A stretch of DNA of 32,366 bases from Lentisphaeria bacterium (GTDB lineage: Bacteria > Verrucomicrobiota > Lentisphaeria > Victivallales > Victivallaceae): NCBI GenBank assembly GCA_017450705.1, contig JAFSTC010000111.1:1-32366 (forward strand). The letters are read 5' to 3'. Each line of letters opens with the position of its first letter. Position 1 is the first letter of the stretch. The position numbers and the translations under genes were made by a program. Shown here in pieces: positions 10,546-26,622 of the stretch. Below the pieces are notes generated by a model. It searched no databases and was not told where the DNA came from. It saw only the letters and a list, made by a program, of their open reading frames with translations.

Positions 10546-11063
10546 TGACAAGGAAACATTTTCTCCGGACGCTCTGTCTCCTGCCGGCGCTCGCCCTCCT
10601 GGCCGGATGCGGCTACAGGATCGGCTATCTGGGGCACCCCCAGCTCAAGAGCATCGCCGTCGCCCCGGTGGTCAACGACACGCTGGCCTACAATGTCGCT
10701 TCCAACATGCGGAATCTGCTCTGCGAGTGCTTCCAGACCGACGGCACGATGAAGCTCACCGGGATGAAAACGGCCGACTGCATCATCTATGCGCGGGTCA
10801 CGGCCATCACCTTCAGCGAGATCTCGTGGAGTTCCCGCAAGAACAACACCTATACGCCGAACCAGTGGAAAGTCCAGCTGTCGGCGGAGTTCTCGGTCGT
10901 TCTGCCCGGCCGGGCCGAGCCCCTGCTGAAGGACGTGAAAGCCTCCGGGACCGCCGAATTCATGAGCGGCCCCGACATTGAGATCAGCCGCAATTACGCC
11001 ATCAAACAGGCCTGTTTCGTGGCCGCCAAGGACATCGTCTCGCAGGTGACGGAAGCCTGGTGA
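10542..11063 (+). CDS. LptE-like LPS-assembly lipoprotein
   Basis: 173 residues with a textbook lipoprotein signal: basic start, hydrophobic core and lipobox L-A-G-C (Cys23), followed directly by G-Y-R-I-G-Y. The G-C-G-Y-R opening, then a strand reading S-I-A-V-A-P-V-V-N-D-T, matches the LptE/RlpB family. LptE plugs LptD in the outer membrane for LPS export. The neighbouring KdsD-like and BamD-like genes agree with this role. The start overlaps the previous stop (ATGA) with GGGAG upstream. Family assignment rests on the N-terminal pattern, length and context. Confidence 0.75.
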   Translation: MMTRKHFLRTLCLLPALALLAGCGYRIGYLGHPQLKSIAVAPVVNDTLAYNVASNMRNLLCECFQTDGTMKLTGMKTADCIIYARVTAITFSEISWSSRKNNTYTPNQWKVQLSAEFSVVLPGRAEPLLKDVKASGTAEFMSGPDIEISRNYAIKQACFVAAKDIVSQVTEAW

Positions 11064-17664: not shown

Positions 17665-18330
17665 TCACTTGAACTTGAGAACAAGACGGGCCGAAGCCTC
17701 TTTTTCTCCCCGCGTCACAACGGGAGCGATTCGAAAGAACGCTCCCGCCGGGGCGACTGTCAGGCCTTCGGCTTCGACGGTCACGGAAACACCGGAAAGG
17801 GTGAGCGCAAGCCGCTTTCCGTCCGGGGAGAGGACGTATTTTCCGACCCGGTCGAGAGGCCACCTGAGGACGAGCAGCGCAAGTTTGACGTCTTCCTGCG
17901 GCAGGTCTTTCACCGTGCAGGACAAGCGGATCTCGGCCCGCTCCCCGGAGAAGCCGAAGACGTATTCCGCCGACGTCCCGGGGAAGACCTCGGGATAAGG
18001 CTTCCAGCGGCGGCGGCAGAAGACGGCCCGCGCCGTGACGCTGTTCCGCCCGGGATCGGGCGAAAGTCCGCTCCAATAGTCCTCCCCGGTGCGGAAGAAG
18101 GTCTTGCCGTTCCCGGGCAGGAGCTCGTCGCCGAAGTCGAAGAAGGGCACCTTCCTGCCGTCGGCGAGGACGATTTCGGCGGGAAAGGCGTGGTACTTGA
18201 GGAACCGGCAGACCAGTTGAGGCGTTTTGACGGTCATTTTCTCCGACACCGGGTCGAACGCGCCGAAAGACACCTCCCCCGCGGCCAGCACCGCCGCGAA
18301 GGGCAGAAAACAACACAAAACCCTTTTCAT
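17665..18330 (-). CDS. Small secreted protein of unknown function
   Basis: 221 residues, not recognised. A signal peptide ([18 protein letters not shown]) is followed by an all-beta-looking chain with many short hydrophobic strands; no catalytic motif is visible. The ATG at 18330 overlaps the stop of the DUF6259-like gene (ATGA) and has GGAGG upstream; the longer upstream frame is rejected because it lacks a signal peptide and a ribosome site. It is the last gene of the four-gene minus-strand operon. A binding or accessory role to the large secreted protein is inferred from context only. Confidence 0.68.
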   Translation of the reverse strand: MKRVLCCFLPFAAVLAAGEVSFGAFDPVSEKMTVKTPQLVCRFLKYHAFPAEIVLADGRKVPFFDFGDELLPGNGKTFFRTGEDYWSGLSPDPGRNSVTARAVFCRRRWKPYPEVFPGTSAEYVFGFSGERAEIRLSCTVKDLPQEDVKLALLVLRWPLDRVGKYVLSPDGKRLALTLSGVSVTVEAEGLTVAPAGAFFRIAPVVTRGEKEASARLVLKFK

Positions 18331-21300
18331 CGCGCCTCCTCCCCGCCCAAGCAGAATCTCCAGGTGCCGAAATTGCAGAGCTGTTCCCCGAAAAAGTTGA
18401 AAAAGAGCAGATGGCGGCCCTCGACGCGCGATGTCAGGGGTATCGAAAGGCGGCCGTAATGACGCCACGACTTCGTGCGGAATTTTTTGTCGAGGGCAAC
18501 GACCGCGGCGATCTTCCCATTCACCGGATCGTCCAGCCGCACTTCGATGCGTCCGACGCCGCTGTCCGCCGGGGCGGCGAGTTTGAGGTCGAGGGCTCTT
18601 TCCGTCCCGTCGAAATCGACGGTCCCCGCGCAGACGCAGGTGCGGCTGATGTAGGTCACGGAGCGGTCCTGCGCGTTGACGACGCCGTTCCAGACCTTGA
18701 CCGCGTCACTGCCGAAATGTTCCGTTTTTGCGGAGAGCGCCTCCCGGTGCGGCAGTTTTTTCAAATCGGGGAGGAAGGGATCGGGGGGAGGAGAAGCTAT
18801 CTTTCGGAACTGTTCCGCGATGTGTTTTTCAAGCTTTTCAGGAACGTTCCCCGCCAGCATGAGGAGAAAATGCCCGGGAGCGATCTCGAAGGCGTCATTC
18901 GCCCGCGCCCGGCAAACCCGCCCCGAGGAGGAGAAGCATTTGACGGGCGCGTCCTTTTCGAGAACAAGACGGTTCATTTTCGTCTCCTTCGAAATGTTGA
19001 TGACGATGTACGCCGTGCAGTCGCCCAGTTTCCAGGCGGCTGCGACAAGAGCGGGCGTGGCGATGACCCGGTCGTAATGGTAGGCCCAGAAATTTTCGAT
19101 CATCTCCGGCTTTTCCGCGAGGACGGGAGGCCGCGCCATCAGCCCCTCCTGAAAGAAGTCCAGCAAGGCCGTGCGCAGATAGATCATTCTCCGAAGACAG
19201 GCCCGCAGATCGGCCAGCAGGGGAGAGGTGATCCCCCACTGGACGAACTGTTCCGAGTTGACCAGCTGCGTCGCGAGGACGGCACAAGAGGCCTCGGGGG
19301 TCCCGCCGGAGATGCCGCCGAAGAACTGGGTGCGTCCCGAATACACCAGCGGGAACAGGGGGACCTGATGCCGGTAGACCCAGCGCCAGGGCAGCACGCC
19401 GTCGAAAAGACCGACGCAGGGCTCGGCGTTGTCCTCGGTGAAGATCATCCCCCCCTTCCCGAATTCCGGCGAGCTGCGGACGGCGTCGAAAACGGGGAAC
19501 TGCCCCAGGTGATACCAGTTGTCCGGCGAATCCGGCGCGTGCCCGTGATCCGGCGATCCGCAGGGGAGCGCCCGGGCCGCGCCGATCTGGTCGCAGTACA
19601 CGGCGTCGAATCCCTGAGCCAGCATGCGCCGGACGAGAAGCGGCGCGTATTTCCGGTAGGTTTTCCCGGCGGGGCAGATCACGGCGTAGGGGATCCCTCC
19701 GAAGTTTTCGACGGCGGGCTTTCTTCCCCGCATGACCGTGCCGGGCAGAGCCTCCTTCGTGAAAAACACATCCTCCCCCCGCACGTCCCGAAGGGGCCAC
19801 AGCCGGGGATCGCAGTAGCCGGAGGTATGGATCCCCGCCTCCCGCAGACGCGCGATGGCTTCGGCCAGAAGCGGCTTCACCCGGCAGTGGGGCGAAAGGG
19901 AGGTCGTCACACACTCCTGCCACTGCCGCAAGTCCAGCAGATAGGGTACGCCGAGGTATTTTTTGAGGGCCAGCAGCTCCGGCAGATGCTGAAATTGCAG
20001 ATTCGGCCAGGGGAGCCGGAAGGCGTTGCGCACGGCCCACGCGGGCGTGCGGATGGATCTCTTCCACCAGCGGGGGGCATATTCTTCCAAAAGTCCCCGG
20101 TAGATCAGGCCCGCGTCGTACCAGTCGCCCCGGAAAAGCTGCCAGACGGCCGTCCCGGCGCGGACGGTCCCGCCCGGGGGGATCCTGTGGGTGAATGAGG
20201 CGGAAAAGACGTTTCCTGAGCAGACAACCCGCAGGCGTTTCGACGCGGCGCGCTCATCCATCAAGGCCAGCATGACGCCGGTTTCGGGGGTGTAGAACGC
20301 CCCCAGCGGCATGGCGCAGGCGCCCCGGGGATAATCGCCGTCGAAGGGCTTTTTCGCCGCATCTTGCCACGGCCGGGCAACGCCGCTGCCCTCGGGGGTC
20401 AGCACCCGGGCGTTTTTCGGATCGGGCACTTGAAAGGAGAGCACCGGGAAGTCCAGTCTTGCCAGCGGCGCTTTCCCCGCATTTTCCACGTCGATCTTCG
20501 CCGTGAGACGGTCGTCGGCAAAATGCAGTTCCAGCCTGACGGCAAGTTTCTCCCCGGGAGGCGGCAATTCGTAGAGCAGAACGGCGCCGGAGGGGGCGGG
20601 CTGGACTTTGACGCGCCACGCCGGGGACTGCCCGTCGAGGACGACGGGGCGGCCCATTCGGGAGAGCGTCAGTGCAAAGAAGGGCGCGTCGGGTCCGAGG
20701 AGCTCCCGGCCCGTTTTGCCGTCGAACCAGGAGAGGACGCCGCAGGCGTCGGGGAAGCGGGAGATCACCAGCTGCGACGTCTTCCCCTCGAGAACGGTGA
20801 AGCTCAAGGAGGCGGAACGGATCAGCTCCCGGAGTTTTTCGTCGGTCACGCCCCGGCCCGCGGCGCGGGCCAGCGCGGACCGGACGGCGGGGGAACAGCC
20901 GCTTTCGTCGATGAGCCTCTTCTGCCGTTCCGAAAGACGCCTTTCGACCTTGAAGGCGGGGGTCACGCCGGGAGAAGCGAGCACCAGCTCGCGGATGCGC
21001 TCTTCGGTGAGAACGCCCCCGCAGACCGCGACGTCGGCCAGCACCCCGGAAAAGCGCCAGGGCAGACCGAAGCTCTCGGCGCTGCCGATCTCGAGAAAAT
21101 CGGAGGTCCCCTCGGGCGGAAGTCCGGGGATCCGGTGTTCCCCGACTAGTTTCCCGTCCAGATAAAACCGGACTTCGTTCCACGCTTCGCCCTGATCGAT
21201 CAGACTGTGCCGGCGGAGCGTCACGGCCAGATGATGACGCCGGGTTTTGTTGTTCAGTTCCGGCAGACGGGGCGTTTCGTACCAGCTGCCCCACTTGCCC

Positions 21301-21608
21301 TCCCGGTGAAAACAGACGCCGAGACGGTCGCCCCGCCGGGCGACGGCCAGCTCCCTGTGCCGGTAAAAGAAGGCGTCCAGCCGTCCGGCGGGCCCGGCGG
21401 GCCCATCGGTCTTCCGCTGGAAAACCGCCGTCAGCGTCAGGCCCTCCCGCCACGGGATGCGCTTGACTTCCCGGCAGACGAGGCCCCTTTTTTCGCCCGA
21501 AAAAACGGTATCCCCCGCCTTTCGGTAAATCGGCGTCTCCCCGGCGGAAGAGAGCTCTCCCGCGAGGAACAGCACAAGCGCGCAGACGATCCCCGCCGCA
21601 AGTTTCAT
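18327..21608 (-). CDS. Large secreted LamG / DUF6259-like glycosidase-type / CBM6-like protein
   Basis: 1093 residues. Residues 1-~22 are a signal peptide. Residues ~30-215 look like a LamG/concanavalin-type domain ([13 protein letters not shown], then [16 protein letters not shown]). Residues ~230-480 are beta-rich. Residues ~490-830 resemble the DUF6259/GH-like TIM barrel ([35 protein letters not shown]). Residues ~960-1085 resemble a CBM6-type beta-sandwich ending H-L-L-F-F-N-F-F-G. The Asp of Y-C-D-Q and the Glu of T-E-D-N could be catalytic, but this is a guess. The ATG at 21608 overlaps the pseudopilin stop. Probably an exported glycan hydrolase; substrate unknown. Confidence 0.75.
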
Positions 21609-22357
21609 TGCTGTCGCGTTCCGGAGCTGTGCAAAGTCCACTGGACGCCCATGGGCGAGTTCACAAGTTCACCCCCGTTCATGGACGCGGTGTGTCCGTC
21701 GAGGAAGGCCGTGTTGGCGTTGTCGCCGTGGACCCGCCAGATGCCGATGTCCGACGTGCAGGCGCTCCGGGAGGTGAAGGCGTACCACCCCACGGGACCG
21801 TAGGCGGCGTTGGCGAAATTGGCCGCATCGGCGAAGAGCAGGAAGGCCGAAGGCATTTTGACGCTGGTCGTCTTGACACAGTCCTTGTTGCCCCAGTTGA
21901 TCCCCTTGCGGGCCCGGGCGTACTCCGTGCGCTCGTTGGAGTTTTTCATGTTGAGCATGCCGTAGCTGTTGGCCTGGCGGCAGCTGTTGAAGGGTTCTGC
22001 CGGTGTGACGCCCTTGGGGTTGGCGATCTCGGGGCAGAGCAGGACTTTCGGCGTCAGATAGGCCGTCTTCCCCAGCTTGTCCAGGCCGCAGAGGATCCAG
22101 TTCCAGTGGGTCATGTTCCCGGCGGGGTCCAGCCGGGAGATGATCACCATGTCCTGACTGTCGGCGGCGTAGCTCAGTTCGGCCTGGATGGTCTGCTTCA
22201 GCTGCGAGATGCAGCTGGAGGTCCGCGCCCGAGCCCGGGCCTGCTGCAGGGCAGGCATCAGCATGGAAGCGAGAATGGCGATGATGGCGATCACGACCAG
22301 AAGCTCGATCAACGTGAAACGCGCTTGCGGCCTGTCCGAGCGAGATGACTTTTTCAT
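21605..22357 (-). CDS. Pseudopilin-type secreted protein with H-x9-DG motif
   Basis: 250 residues. The N-terminus holds a type IV pilin-like signal: basic leader, then [16 protein letters not shown] with the Glu at +5, as used by prepilin peptidase. The rest is a globular PVC-type domain with L-L-C-P-E, N-S-Y-G-M, L-L-F-A-D-A and the C-terminal [12 protein letters not shown]. The ATG at 22357 is preferred over 22372 because AAGGAAAGG precedes only the former. No other pilus or type II secretion gene is nearby. Its stop overlaps the start of the large secreted protein, so the two are probably made together and may act together at the cell surface. Confidence 0.88.
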
Positions 22358-22393
22358 GACCTTTCCTTTCATGATATAACGGTCGAGACGACG

Positions 22394-23524
22394 TTATTTC
22401 AAAAAAACTCCGTTTTCGATGACGATCCGGCCACGGGGCTCCCGGGAAAGGACCCGGAAGCCGGTTTCGCCGCCCGGCGCGTCCAGCCGGACCGGGAGCA
22501 CGACGTCGCCCGCAAGTTCGAACTTTTCCGCGCAGACGCCGCCGTTCACAAGCTCAAGCACAAGCGGTCCGGCATCCTCCAAACGGACCTCGGCCGAAAA
22601 ATGCCGGTAGACGCCCCGGGGGATGGCGTACAGCAGGACCGCTTCGCTGTTGACGCCGAAAGCGATGTCGTTCCCCTTCTCCTCATACCGCCGCAGGGCG
22701 AAGCCGCCCGAGCCGCCGATGGGGTAAGCGAAGGGCGAAAATTCGGCAAGACGCCGCTCCGGAACGAGAGGCGCCCGGTCTTCCGCGATGGCGAACACCG
22801 TGGCGACGGCGTCCGTCGCCAGAGAAAGGGCGTTGAGGAACATGATCTTTTCGTTTTCCTCAGGCGTTCTCCGGCTTGCGCCGTAGAGAAAATCGACGGC
22901 CAGATCGAAGAGAGCCCTCCGGCTGGAGGCCCCGTCCCGGACATACCGCGCGTAAAGCAGGGAAACCGCCTCGTCGATGCTGTCCGAAAGGATCCGGGGG
23001 GCGGCGGCGAGGGTCAGAAAAGACTCATCGAAAGGCAGTTTTGCGAGGTATTTGGCGGTCTCCCGGCCCGAGAGGCGGTCGAGGACGAAGAGATCCGTCC
23101 CGTCGGCCCCCTCCAGCGCGTGGAGCCCGAAGAGAGAGTCCTCGATGAAATGCAGAAGACAGCCCAGATATTTCCAGGCTTCTTTCCGTTCGCCCAGCCG
23201 CAGAAGACCGATGGCCTTTTCGATATAGAAACGCATCCCCTTTTCGACGTGGCGGAGATTGTCGTTGGGCCTGAGATGGACCATTTTGAGACCGTTCTCT
23301 CCCCGCGTCCAGTAGCGGTAGAACTCCTCCACCGGCGTGTGGGGCGGGTAGTGGAATTGGATCCCGTCGGTGAAATACATGTACGGCTCCGCCTCGGCGT
23401 GGCGGGGCCCCCAGTAGTCGTCGGGCCAGCAGCAGCAGTCGAGATCGAAAGACGCCGCGTCCGGCACTCCGGCGCAAGCAAGTGCCCGGGCCGTCAGGCA
23501 TTTGTGGAACGCTTCACCGGGCAT
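22394..23524 (-). CDS. PLC/S1-P1-like all-alpha domain with C-terminal NPCBM-like domain
   Basis: 376 residues, no signal peptide. Residues 1-~250 are helical and contain H125-x3-D129-x5-H135-x2-E138 (in L-L-H-F-I-E-D-S-L-F-G-L-H-A-L-E), resembling the zinc site of zinc-dependent phospholipase C/S1-P1 nucleases; H7 and W33-P-D may contribute. Residues ~270-376 (F-G-V-N-S-E-A-V-L-L-Y, then F-S-A-E-V-R-L-E-D) look like an NPCBM-type carbohydrate-binding beta domain. It is first in the four-gene operon, with a promoter shared symmetrically with the GntR-type regulator. An intracellular hydrolase acting on an imported glycoconjugate is one reading. The fold assignment is tentative. Confidence 0.5.
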   Translation of the reverse strand: MPGEAFHKCLTARALACAGVPDAASFDLDCCCWPDDYWGPRHAEAEPYMYFTDGIQFHYPPHTPVEEFYRYWTRGENGLKMVHLRPNDNLRHVEKGMRFYIEKAIGLLRLGERKEAWKYLGCLLHFIEDSLFGLHALEGADGTDLFVLDRLSGRETAKYLAKLPFDESFLTLAAAPRILSDSIDEAVSLLYARYVRDGASSRRALFDLAVDFLYGASRRTPEENEKIMFLNALSLATDAVATVFAIAEDRAPLVPERRLAEFSPFAYPIGGSGGFALRRYEEKGNDIAFGVNSEAVLLYAIPRGVYRHFSAEVRLEDAGPLVLELVNGGVCAEKFELAGDVVLPVRLDAPGGETGFRVLSREPRGRIVIENGVFLK

Positions 23525-23589
23525 TTTTCAAACTCATCCTCCGATACGTCCGCGATCGCGGAACACCTGATGTCTATTTATGCAACAGT

Positions 23590-23618
23590 AATATACCCTT
23601 CTTCGGGCATTTTGTCAA
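23590..23618 (-). promoter_or_regulatory. Near-consensus promoter of the 23524-17665 operon
   Basis: Minus strand TTGACA (23618-23613), 17 bp, TATATT (23595-23590), a near-perfect sigma-70 promoter. Its -35 box forms one arm of the inverted repeat 23612-23632 whose other arm is the -35 box of the divergent regulator gene. Confidence 0.75.
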
Positions 23619-23632
23619 GTTCCCCTTGACAA
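23612..23632. promoter_or_regulatory. Inverted repeat joining the two divergent -35 boxes (candidate operator)
   Basis: TTGTCAAG (23612-23619), 5 bp, CTTGACAA (23625-23632), perfect 8-bp arms. The symmetry places one TTGACA in each direction, so a dimeric regulator bound here would block both promoters at once. The symmetry may instead be a by-product of two facing TTGACA boxes. Confidence 0.5.
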
Positions 23633-23654
23633 GAGGAGATATCTCCGCTAGATT
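23626..23654 (+). promoter_or_regulatory. Near-consensus promoter of the GntR/LacI regulator
   Basis: TTGACA (23626-23631), 17 bp, TAGATT (23649-23654). The spacer contains the 12-bp palindrome at 23635-23646. Confidence 0.72.
23635..23646. promoter_or_regulatory. 12-bp perfect palindrome in the promoter spacer (candidate GntR operator)
   Basis: GGAGATATCTCC lies between the -35 and -10 boxes of the regulator gene, the usual place for autorepression by a dimeric winged-helix protein. Binding by the product of the adjacent gene is inferred. Confidence 0.5.
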
Positions 23655-23679
23655 ATATAGAAGGACATTCGGAGGGGGA

Positions 23680-24750
23680 ATGAAAAAGGAAGTCGCGAAA
23701 ACGCAGTATCTGCTGCCTGAAAAACTGAAGCGGAACTCGACCGTTCCGCTGTATTCCCAGATCCACGCCCAGCTCAGACGGGAGATCGTTCTCGGGAACT
23801 TCCGCCCGGGAGAGAAATTCTACTCCTATCGGGAGCTCAAGCAGCTCTACGGCGTGGAGCTGCGGACCGTCGCCGCGTCACTGAATCTGCTCGTCCGGGA
23901 CGGTCTGGTCGAAAAACAGGCGGCACGGGGCACCTACGTCCGCAGAACGGATCTCTGCCGCGAGGTGGGCAACATCTGGTTCGCCGTGATCGGCCATGAG
24001 GGATATCATCCCTTTTACTTCAACGCCCTCAACGGCCTGATCTGCGAAGCGCAGAAATTCGGACTGCGGGTGATGGTCAAGCTGAGCGGCGGCCGGAAGG
24101 ATTTTCTGGAATGGTTCGAACCCTCTCCCGGAGAAGGGCTGATCCTCACGGGGGAAATCGACAACGCACTCGTCCACCGCGCCGGAAAGAAATGCAACAA
24201 CAACGTGGTCGTGATCGGCAACTACGAGAACATCGAAAACGCGGGGACCGTCTGCGCCCGTTTTTCCGCCGCGCTGGAGACCGCCCTCTGCCTGGCCTGG
24301 AACAAGGGAGCCCGGCGCTTCATGCTGATCACGGGCGACATCACCCGTCCCATCTCCCGGGGGCTGAGGGAGAAAGTCAGGGTCTTCTGCGAAACGAAAA
24401 AATGCGGATTCGTTCCCGTCTCCGCTCCGGAGGAAGACGGTTATGCGGCACTGGCGGATGCGACGGCCCTCCCCGACTGCATCGTCGTGACCGAAGCCGC
24501 CTACAAAGGCGTCCTCTACCGCATGCTGGAACAACGGCTGCGGTGTCCCGACGACATCTTTCTCATCCGCTACGGCCGAGAGCGTCAGGACCGGTCGTCC
24601 CCCGATTACGCCGCCGTAGACATGGAGGGCGACGGGCGGAAATTCGGAGCGGCGGCTCTGCGGCTCCTGCTACGCGGCGGCAAGGAAACAACGGCGCTGG
24701 ACATCGTCTGCAGGATCAAACGCGATCAGGAAAAATCGTGGCCGGTCTGA
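23680..24750 (+). CDS. GntR-type DNA-binding / LacI-type sensor hybrid transcription regulator
   Basis: 356 residues. Residues ~20-90 form a GntR winged helix (P-L-Y-S-Q-I-H-A-Q-L-R-R-E-I, then Y-R-E-L-K-Q-L-Y-G-V and L-V-R-D-G-L-V-E-K-Q-A-A-R-G-T-Y-V). Residues ~100-350 resemble a periplasmic-binding-protein/LacI sensor fold: N-I-W-F-A-V-I, a P-F-Y-F-N-A-L-N-G-L segment, and D-C-I-V-V-T-E-A-A-Y-K-G-V-L. This AraR-like layout usually senses a sugar in the cytoplasm. It is divergent from the four-gene secreted-protein operon and very likely controls it. GGAGGGGG precedes the ATG at 23680; longer upstream frames overlap the promoter and are rejected. Confidence 0.88.
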   Translation: MKKEVAKTQYLLPEKLKRNSTVPLYSQIHAQLRREIVLGNFRPGEKFYSYRELKQLYGVELRTVAASLNLLVRDGLVEKQAARGTYVRRTDLCREVGNIWFAVIGHEGYHPFYFNALNGLICEAQKFGLRVMVKLSGGRKDFLEWFEPSPGEGLILTGEIDNALVHRAGKKCNNNVVVIGNYENIENAGTVCARFSAALETALCLAWNKGARRFMLITGDITRPISRGLREKVRVFCETKKCGFVPVSAPEEDGYAALADATALPDCIVVTEAAYKGVLYRMLEQRLRCPDDIFLIRYGRERQDRSSPDYAAVDMEGDGRKFGAAALRLLLRGGKETTALDIVCRIKRDQEKSWPV

Positions 24751-24802
24751 CGAAGCCGAAAGCGGCGTCGGGCGTTTTGTCAGCAGCTCTTCCGGGCACG
24801 CG

Positions 24803-25855
24803 CTAATACCAGTCGGACTTGACCCCTCCCGACATCGCCTCGGGGTTCTCGGGGTCGTAGACGAAGCCGTGATGGTCCTCGTGTCCCCGGGGGGGCTTCT
24901 CGGGGATCCGCCAGGGCTTCTCGTCGGTGAAATCGTGCCGGAAGATGTTGCCGATGCGGCGGCGTTTCTCCAAGTGGTTCATACAGCTGATGATGCATCC
25001 CCGGGCGCCGCAGATGGCGATGGGGTACGCCGAAAACGCCTTCCACGTGGGCACGGCGGAAAAAAGCGAATGACCGAAGTTCCACCCCTCGACCCAGGTG
25101 TTGCCCTGCTCCTCCATGGGCAGATAGATACCGGGAAAAGTCTTGACGAAGTGGGGCGAAGTCGTCCGGTTGAGCCCGAAATGGGTGAGCTTGCACTTGC
25201 CGACCTTGAGGTCGTTGCACTCCCAGCTGACGCCGCCCGCGGTGATGATGTTGCCCTTGTCACGGTCGATGGCGTTGCCGGGGCAGTCCCGGACGCAGAG
25301 CTTGCAGCGGTCGCAGATGCGGCCGATGCGGATGGGGTCCGGCTCCAGCTCGGCGTCGGTCAGGATCAGTCCCAGCCGCTGGCGGGGACCGAACTGGGGC
25401 GTGAGCAGGACCTTGCTCCAGCCCATCTCCCCCAGACCGGCCATGACGGCGGCGATGCGCAGACTCACGTTGATGTCCCGGGGATACTTCCCGCCCGGGG
25501 GCACGGGTCCCCGGGGACCGGCCTCCTTGAGCGTCGCGGCGGGCGGACAGGGCACCGAGAGATACCCGTGGTCCTCGATGAAGCGGCCGATGCGGTAGTT
25601 GGCCTGATGGACCAGCTTGGTCAGTCCGGAGTAGGCGAAGACCTGATAGCTGGGCCAGTGGGTCCCCCGTTCGATGCCCCGGTAGCAGCCGCGGATGATC
25701 CGGCGGGCGAAGACGATGACCGACTTCGCCCCGGGAAAGACCGTGCGGGGACTCATGTATTCGGGCGCGCCGTCGAAGCGTTCGATGGGCGCGATGCCGA
25801 TGGCGTCCACGCCGACGACGTTTTTGGCGAAATCCTTGAGTTCCTGCGACGTCAT
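24803..25855 (-). CDS. QueG-like 4Fe-4S protein (paralogue 2)
   Basis: 350 residues. N-terminal half resembles the QueG/reductive-dehalogenase B12-binding region (D-A-I-G-I-A-P, A-K-S-V-I-V-F-A-R, then G-L-G-E-M-G-W and L-T-P-Q-F-G-P-R). A ferredoxin motif C181-x2-C184-x2-C187-x3-C191-P follows, with further cysteines at 213, 221 and in C282-G-A-R-G-C287-x3-C291 that could complete a second cluster. It lacks the HEAT-repeat tail of true QueG, and queH is already present, so a queuosine role is doubtful; a corrinoid/Fe-S reductase on another substrate is more likely. The start overlaps the stop of paralogue 1 (ATGA). Confidence 0.72.
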   Translation of the reverse strand: MTSQELKDFAKNVVGVDAIGIAPIERFDGAPEYMSPRTVFPGAKSVIVFARRIIRGCYRGIERGTHWPSYQVFAYSGLTKLVHQANYRIGRFIEDHGYLSVPCPPAATLKEAGPRGPVPPGGKYPRDINVSLRIAAVMAGLGEMGWSKVLLTPQFGPRQRLGLILTDAELEPDPIRIGRICDRCKLCVRDCPGNAIDRDKGNIITAGGVSWECNDLKVGKCKLTHFGLNRTTSPHFVKTFPGIYLPMEEQGNTWVEGWNFGHSLFSAVPTWKAFSAYPIAICGARGCIISCMNHLEKRRRIGNIFRHDFTDEKPWRIPEKPPRGHEDHHGFVYDPENPEAMSGGVKSDWY

Positions 25856-26622
25856 TTTTTTGCCTCGAGGTGCTTGCAGCAGGCCCTTCCGCAGGCGGCG
25901 CCGGTGCGGTTGGGTTCGAGCCCGAGGGAGTAGGGTCTGGGCCACGTGCCCGTGGTGCAGACCCGGCAGCTTTCGACGCGCAGACGCCAGTGGCGCATGG
26001 TCCCGGCGGGATAGACGGCCTCGACGGGGGTGTTCCGGTCGAGGGCGCAGGCGGGACAGGCCGCGGCGCAGGCCCCGCAGTGGTCGCACAGCCCGCCGGG
26101 GAACACCGGATCGGGCGCGAGCTCCAGATCGGTCAGCACGGCGGAAAAGACCTGCCGGGGACCGAACTGCGGCGTGAGGAAGAGTTTGCCGTCTCCCAGC
26201 TCGCCCAGACCTGCGGCATAGGCGGCGTACTCCATGTCGATGATGACGTCGGGGGCCGGACGGTCGGGCGAAACGGGCACGCCCTTGTCACGCAGCTCGT
26301 AGGAGCAGCGGACAAGGGGAACCGTCTCGAAACCCTCGTTCTCGACTTGGCGGCAGAAGTTGTAGGTCACCTCCTGCATGTAGTTGGAGAACCCGGTGGG
26401 ATCCGCGCCGGAGTAGGTCCCCCAGTTGGTCCCGTTCTCGATCCCCTGCAGGGCCCCCCGGAGGATCCGGAACCCCAGCACGATCACCGACTTCGTATCC
26501 GGCTTGATCGCCGCCGGATCCTCGTTGCCCGGGACCTCGGCAAAGCGTTCGACGGGCGCGATGCCGACCAGATCGGCGCCGCAGTCCCGCGCCAGTTTCT
26601 TCACAGCTTGCGCATCGAGCAT
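25852..26622 (-). CDS. QueG-like 4Fe-4S protein (paralogue 1)
   Basis: 256 residues, clearly related to the next gene: A-D-L-V-G-I-A-P-V-E-R-F at the start, T-K-S-V-I-V-L-G, G-L-G-E-L-G-D and L-T-P-Q-F-G-P-R. One ferredoxin motif, C179-x2-C182-x2-C185-x3-C189-P, is followed by scattered cysteines (219, 222, 244, 248, 249) that may bind a second cluster. It is much shorter than QueG. The ATG at 26622 lies about 70 nt below a near-consensus promoter with an overlapping palindrome, and it leads a two-gene operon. The function is not established; the pair may form a heterodimer or act on consecutive steps. Confidence 0.72.
   Translation of the reverse strand: MLDAQAVKKLARDCGADLVGIAPVERFAEVPGNEDPAAIKPDTKSVIVLGFRILRGALQGIENGTNWGTYSGADPTGFSNYMQEVTYNFCRQVENEGFETVPLVRCSYELRDKGVPVSPDRPAPDVIIDMEYAAYAAGLGELGDGKLFLTPQFGPRQVFSAVLTDLELAPDPVFPGGLCDHCGACAAACPACALDRNTPVEAVYPAGTMRHWRLRVESCRVCTTGTWPRPYSLGLEPNRTGAACGRACCKHLEAKK

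Follow-up and report, generated by a model that had tools for sequence, protein, structure and literature searches.

In the window analyzed here, a stretch of 32,366 nucleotides from a Lentisphaeria bacterium, a regulator gene and a putative operon are arranged back to back, and we consider it likely that together they form a divergon of an AraR-type repressor (a GntR/LacI chimera) and its target operon. Comparison with related loci leads us to expect, with good confidence, that the regulator sits over the start of the operon promoter P− at 23568–23587 and so represses the operon, leaving the inverted repeat between the −35 boxes of the two promoters unused. A first-pass annotation of the locus had proposed a two-way switch in which a dimer bound to that repeat shuts off the regulator gene and the operon together; what we describe is probably a one-way off-switch instead. 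The two consensus promoters placed back to back are seen directly in the DNA. A dimer of the regulator would bind to TGATGTCTATTTATGCAACA, over the predicted P− start, and the bound regulator would block transcription of the operon until a ligand of its LacI-like domain, probably of the sugar type, releases the repression. Since the promoter of the regulator gene, P+, carries no such operator-type site, that gene is probably constitutive or tuned only indirectly. The features on which this reading is built are collected in Table 1.

Table 1. Features of the divergent locus (position 1 is the first letter of the window).
Feature	Positions	Strand	Description
Fourth ORF of putative operon	17665..18468	minus	No family match
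Third operon gene	18327..21641	minus	Large carbohydrate-active protein: DUF6259, LamG-like, CBM6-like
Second operon gene	21605..22372	minus	Prepilin-type protein (pseudopilin), N-terminal cleavage motif
First operon gene	22394..23524	minus	Conserved partner of the regulator; putatively related, at a distance, to zinc-dependent phospholipase C
Perfect palindrome TCCGCGATCGCGGA	23549..23562		Leader of the P− transcript
Predicted operator TGATGTCTATTTATGCAACA	23568..23587		2 bp downstream of the P− −10 box, over the predicted operon start
P− promoter of operon	23590..23618	minus	TTGACA 23618-23613, spacer 17, TATATT 23595-23590; 11/12 consensus
Inverted repeat TTGTCAAG-TTCCC-CTTGACAA	23612..23632		8-bp arms, made up of both −35 boxes and 2 additional pairs
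P+ promoter of regulator gene	23626..23654	plus	TTGACA 23626-23631, spacer 17, TAGATT 23649-23654; 10/12 consensus
Perfect palindrome GGAGATATCTCC	23635..23646		Within the P+ spacer
Regulator	23680..24750	plus	AraR-type chimera: GntR winged helix at residues 24-87, sugar-binding domain of LacI type at 207-332

A predicted operator over the operon start

The first-pass annotation was confined to 23590–23654 and thereby missed the more telling element at 23568–23587. The element TGTTGCA..ACATCA, common to the regulatory regions, was first spotted by eye and then tested blind, with a 20-bp palindrome sought by expectation-maximisation in the regulatory regions of six relatives and the window left out (the six training loci represent five genomes, L057 being close to L058). 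The search returned TGTNGTATANNTATACNACA with a log-likelihood of 40.0, compared to 26.4 ± 1.8 (maximum 31.4) in 100 dinucleotide-shuffled sets. When this motif of the relatives is applied to the 32-kb window its top match is TGATGTCTATTTATGCAACA at 20.1 bits, with the next match at 9.9 bits and a highest score of 11.4 in 100 shuffled windows, and no score above −2 bits is found at the −35 repeat or at P+. From these scores, the neighbouring regulator most likely binds TGATGTCTATTTATGCAACA rather than the −35 repeat, i.e., 25–60 bases from the operator first proposed.

The placement of the sites is also consistent among relatives. All ten predicted sites (one in the window and nine in relatives, from five genomes) overlap the −10 box of a near-consensus promoter or begin 2–10 bp beyond it, which is where a polymerase-blocking repressor would sit. 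Sites of the second kind are found at P− in the window, at the phospholipase-like gene and the HAD operon in L057, at the HAD operons in L054, L056, and L058, and at the regulator-led operon in L060; L055 has a weak site only (10.1 bits). The sites that overlap −10 belong to the regulator's own promoter in three relatives (L054, L057, and L058), so autoregulation appears to be widespread in the group, and something unrecognised, e.g., the palindrome at 23635–23646, could act on P+. The genes that lie behind the same motif in relatives encode HAD, pilin, and DUF4838/GH67N or GH123 proteins, a content that fits polysaccharide or glycan use.

As a negative control we used seven genomes of the same genus in which the first operon gene has a homologue but the regulator has no orthologue at the search thresholds. 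The motif was absent upstream of the homologue (best 4.5 bits) and elsewhere in the 4-kb loci of these genomes (best 7.7 bits), which means that the motif tracks the regulator and not the gene. A regulon search of the bacterium's own genome with the operator gave the window site alone at 2 mismatches, the remainder being at control level; since there is no second good site, the regulator looks to act locally.

The regulator and the genes it adjoins

The regulator matches PF00392 (GntR winged helix) at 49.2 bits (cut-off 27) and PF13377 (Peripla_BP_3) at 28.1 bits (cut-off 26.5), and its profile matches in the PDB are GntR and LacI/CcpA chains. The protein combines an N-terminal GntR domain with a C-terminal GalR/LacI-type ligand-binding domain, and a GntR winged helix joined to a LacI-type periplasmic-binding-like domain is how AraR-subfamily proteins are built (PMC4494728). 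The palindromic operator in the promoter of linked carbohydrate genes that goes with the AraR type has its counterpart in the predicted site at 23568–23587 and in the sites of the relatives. Four other genomes have orthologues with 40–47% identity, and two have more distant ones at about 30%; the regulator as query against named genomes gave no match, and a literature search for Victivallis GntR regulators gave nothing directly useful. Homologues of the first operon gene accompany the regulator in five other loci, divergently in L055 and L057 and on the same strand in L054, L056, and L060. The divergent gene order reported earlier for the window is borne out, and the proposal that a sugar-type regulator, encoded at 23680–24750, serves the adjoining operon is supported by its domains and by the linkage kept in these five loci.

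The product of the first operon gene weakly resembles a zinc-dependent phospholipase C. Residues H7, D35, H58, H125, D129, and H135 are invariant in its alignment, and PF00882 gives no match for the window protein and a weak match (18.2 bits, cut-off 26.8) for the homologue L054, the single homologue matching. A PDB profile search with the product found no match, and its structure predicted from the single sequence was unusable (pLDDT 36). The family to which it belongs (homologues L055, L056, L057, L054, L060, L156–L161, and L163) is conserved with invariant H/D residues, is probably a divergent zinc-dependent phospholipase/nuclease fold, and recurs in the bacterial order, mostly without a database match. 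One homologue, L159 (G030:C20:95824-96948), has an in-frame TAG stop.

The promoter pair and alternative readings

The two near-consensus promoters in mirror image, described in the first-pass annotation with −35 boxes 7 bp apart, are found by inspection of the sequence and by the scan alike. The gap between the −35 boxes is 23619–23625, and transcription is predicted to start near 23583 for P− and near 23661 for P+. They are the sole two sites at the threshold of the scan in 18000–26500 (shuffles: mean 1.0, sd 1.0). Over the whole genome (3.97 Mb, 117 contigs), TTGACA-17-TANANT has 79 matches vs. 1 for the reversed control, which marks it as a true promoter consensus in this organism; P− and P+ are therefore very likely both real promoters, yet ordinary for this bacterium. 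Close divergent pairs with −35s within 100 bp were seen three times genome-wide, with 0.04 expected, so chance is excluded as their source; the two further pairs (C39:58028/58142 and C48:11659/11760) have −35s 72–85 bp apart, and the former adjoins a GntR paralogue. Back-to-back TTGACA boxes within 30 bp occur at three places in the genome, which is the control level, and the window's is the only one of the three with −10 boxes.

Two polymerases would hardly find room together where −35 boxes are separated by 7 bp, which is why indirect tuning of P+ is allowed for in the mechanism given above. In a promoter-competition switch the regulator would bind at the P− start only; as the shared −35 region admits one polymerase at a time, repressing P− would shift the output of P+ and give reciprocal control with no second operator. 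We regard such promoter competition as a serious possibility, though not as the expected behavior. It agrees with an operator on one side only and with a 7-bp spacing of two TTGACA boxes whose single occurrence in the genome is in the window, but it is argued from geometry and from what is generally known of the polymerase footprint, and relatives do not keep so tight a spacing (in L057, a divergent relative with clear promoters, the −35s are 42 bp apart). A literature search on interference between promoters set back to back yielded no report of direct use. That the locus is a reciprocal switch, in which a repressor at one promoter controls both because −35 boxes so near each other cannot take two polymerases at once, seems unlikely.

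A second regulator acting on GGAGATATCTCC in the P+ spacer, on TCCGCGATCGCGGA in the P− leader, or on both would account for the presence of two perfect palindromes of at least 12 bp in the 155-bp intergenic region, which arises in 0.001 of shuffles, although this is a post hoc observation. We find this reading quite improbable, as exact copies of neither palindrome turn up in other promoters of the genome (TCCGCGATCGCGGA has no other exact copy, and GGAGATATCTCC has one, apparently outside promoters); no conservation of either was found in relatives. The lack of conservation and the position of its second copy also led us to reject GGAGATATCTCC as the regulator's site; it is possible that it serves another protein or weak autoregulation.

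The single inverted repeat of the first-pass annotation does exist, but 6 of the 8 pairs (12 of the 16 paired bases) of TTGTCAAG-N5-CTTGACAA are simply the −35 boxes, and two extra contiguous pairs beside such boxes have a chance of about 16%. The genome contains no second copy with up to 2 mismatches; with up to 3 mismatches there are 17 other places vs. 11 for the control, and the repeat is not kept in the divergent relatives. Since it consists mostly of −35 boxes, does not recur in the genome, and was not found in relatives, the repeat is no independent sign of an operator, and in our judgment it is, in good likelihood, a by-product of two consensus −35 boxes set back to back. The trap is a general one, as back-to-back consensus −35 boxes always resemble an inverted repeat. 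A regulator dimer on this repeat that turns both promoters off at once is very improbable even though the repeat is present at the center of the divergent region and a single site often serves both sides in GntR divergons (PMC4494728), because most of its pairs are −35 boxes, it has no near copy in the genome, it does not match the relatives' motif (−2 bits or less), and the −35s of L057 lie 42 bp apart; nor does the sequence give any indication that the regulator gene is shut off jointly, with the candidate operator covering the start of the minus promoter only.

Known systems and related loci

Among known systems the locus is closest to the AraR type of Bacillus subtilis, a GntR subfamily with which it shares the GntR winged helix and GalR/LacI-type sugar-binding domain, a palindromic AT-rich operator (here predicted), and the role, likewise predicted, of a repressor of adjoining carbohydrate genes (PMC4494728). 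It differs from that subfamily in the predicted operator sequence and in its targets, which are a phospholipase-like protein, a pseudopilin, and a DUF6259 protein rather than arabinose genes. For AraR-type regulators the releasing ligand is a sugar such as L-arabinose, and here too a sugar-type ligand is probable. In the single-site divergons of the FadR and HutC subfamilies, as here, the regulator is divergent from the structural operon and one intergenic site (predicted in our case) lies nearer the latter, which agrees with the general trend among GntR divergons (PMC4494728). These are other subfamilies, however, and at the present locus the predicted site lies over a single promoter's start, and a 7-bp −35 junction joins the pair.

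Lentisphaerota-related bacteria have many AraR-type regulators beside carbohydrate-degrading genes, and the locus offers a testable operator for an uncharacterised one. The adenylosuccinate synthase encoded in the window shares 70% identity with those of a Lentisphaerae MAG and of a Victivallaceae MAG. The operator consensus and the conserved pair of regulator and phospholipase-like gene can be used to predict a small regulon in relatives. A distant relative of the regulator in L059 has a different perfect-arm palindrome, ACTGTAACG-N6-CGTTACAGT (10988-11011), just past the −10 box of its promoter, which is probably another operator of the same class. Several GntR paralogues of the window's own genome (L004, L005, L006, L007, and L008) have a TTGACA-17-TATATT promoter directly upstream, and at some of them short repeats follow the promoter, e.g., ACTGGACTGGGTTGGACTGG in L004.
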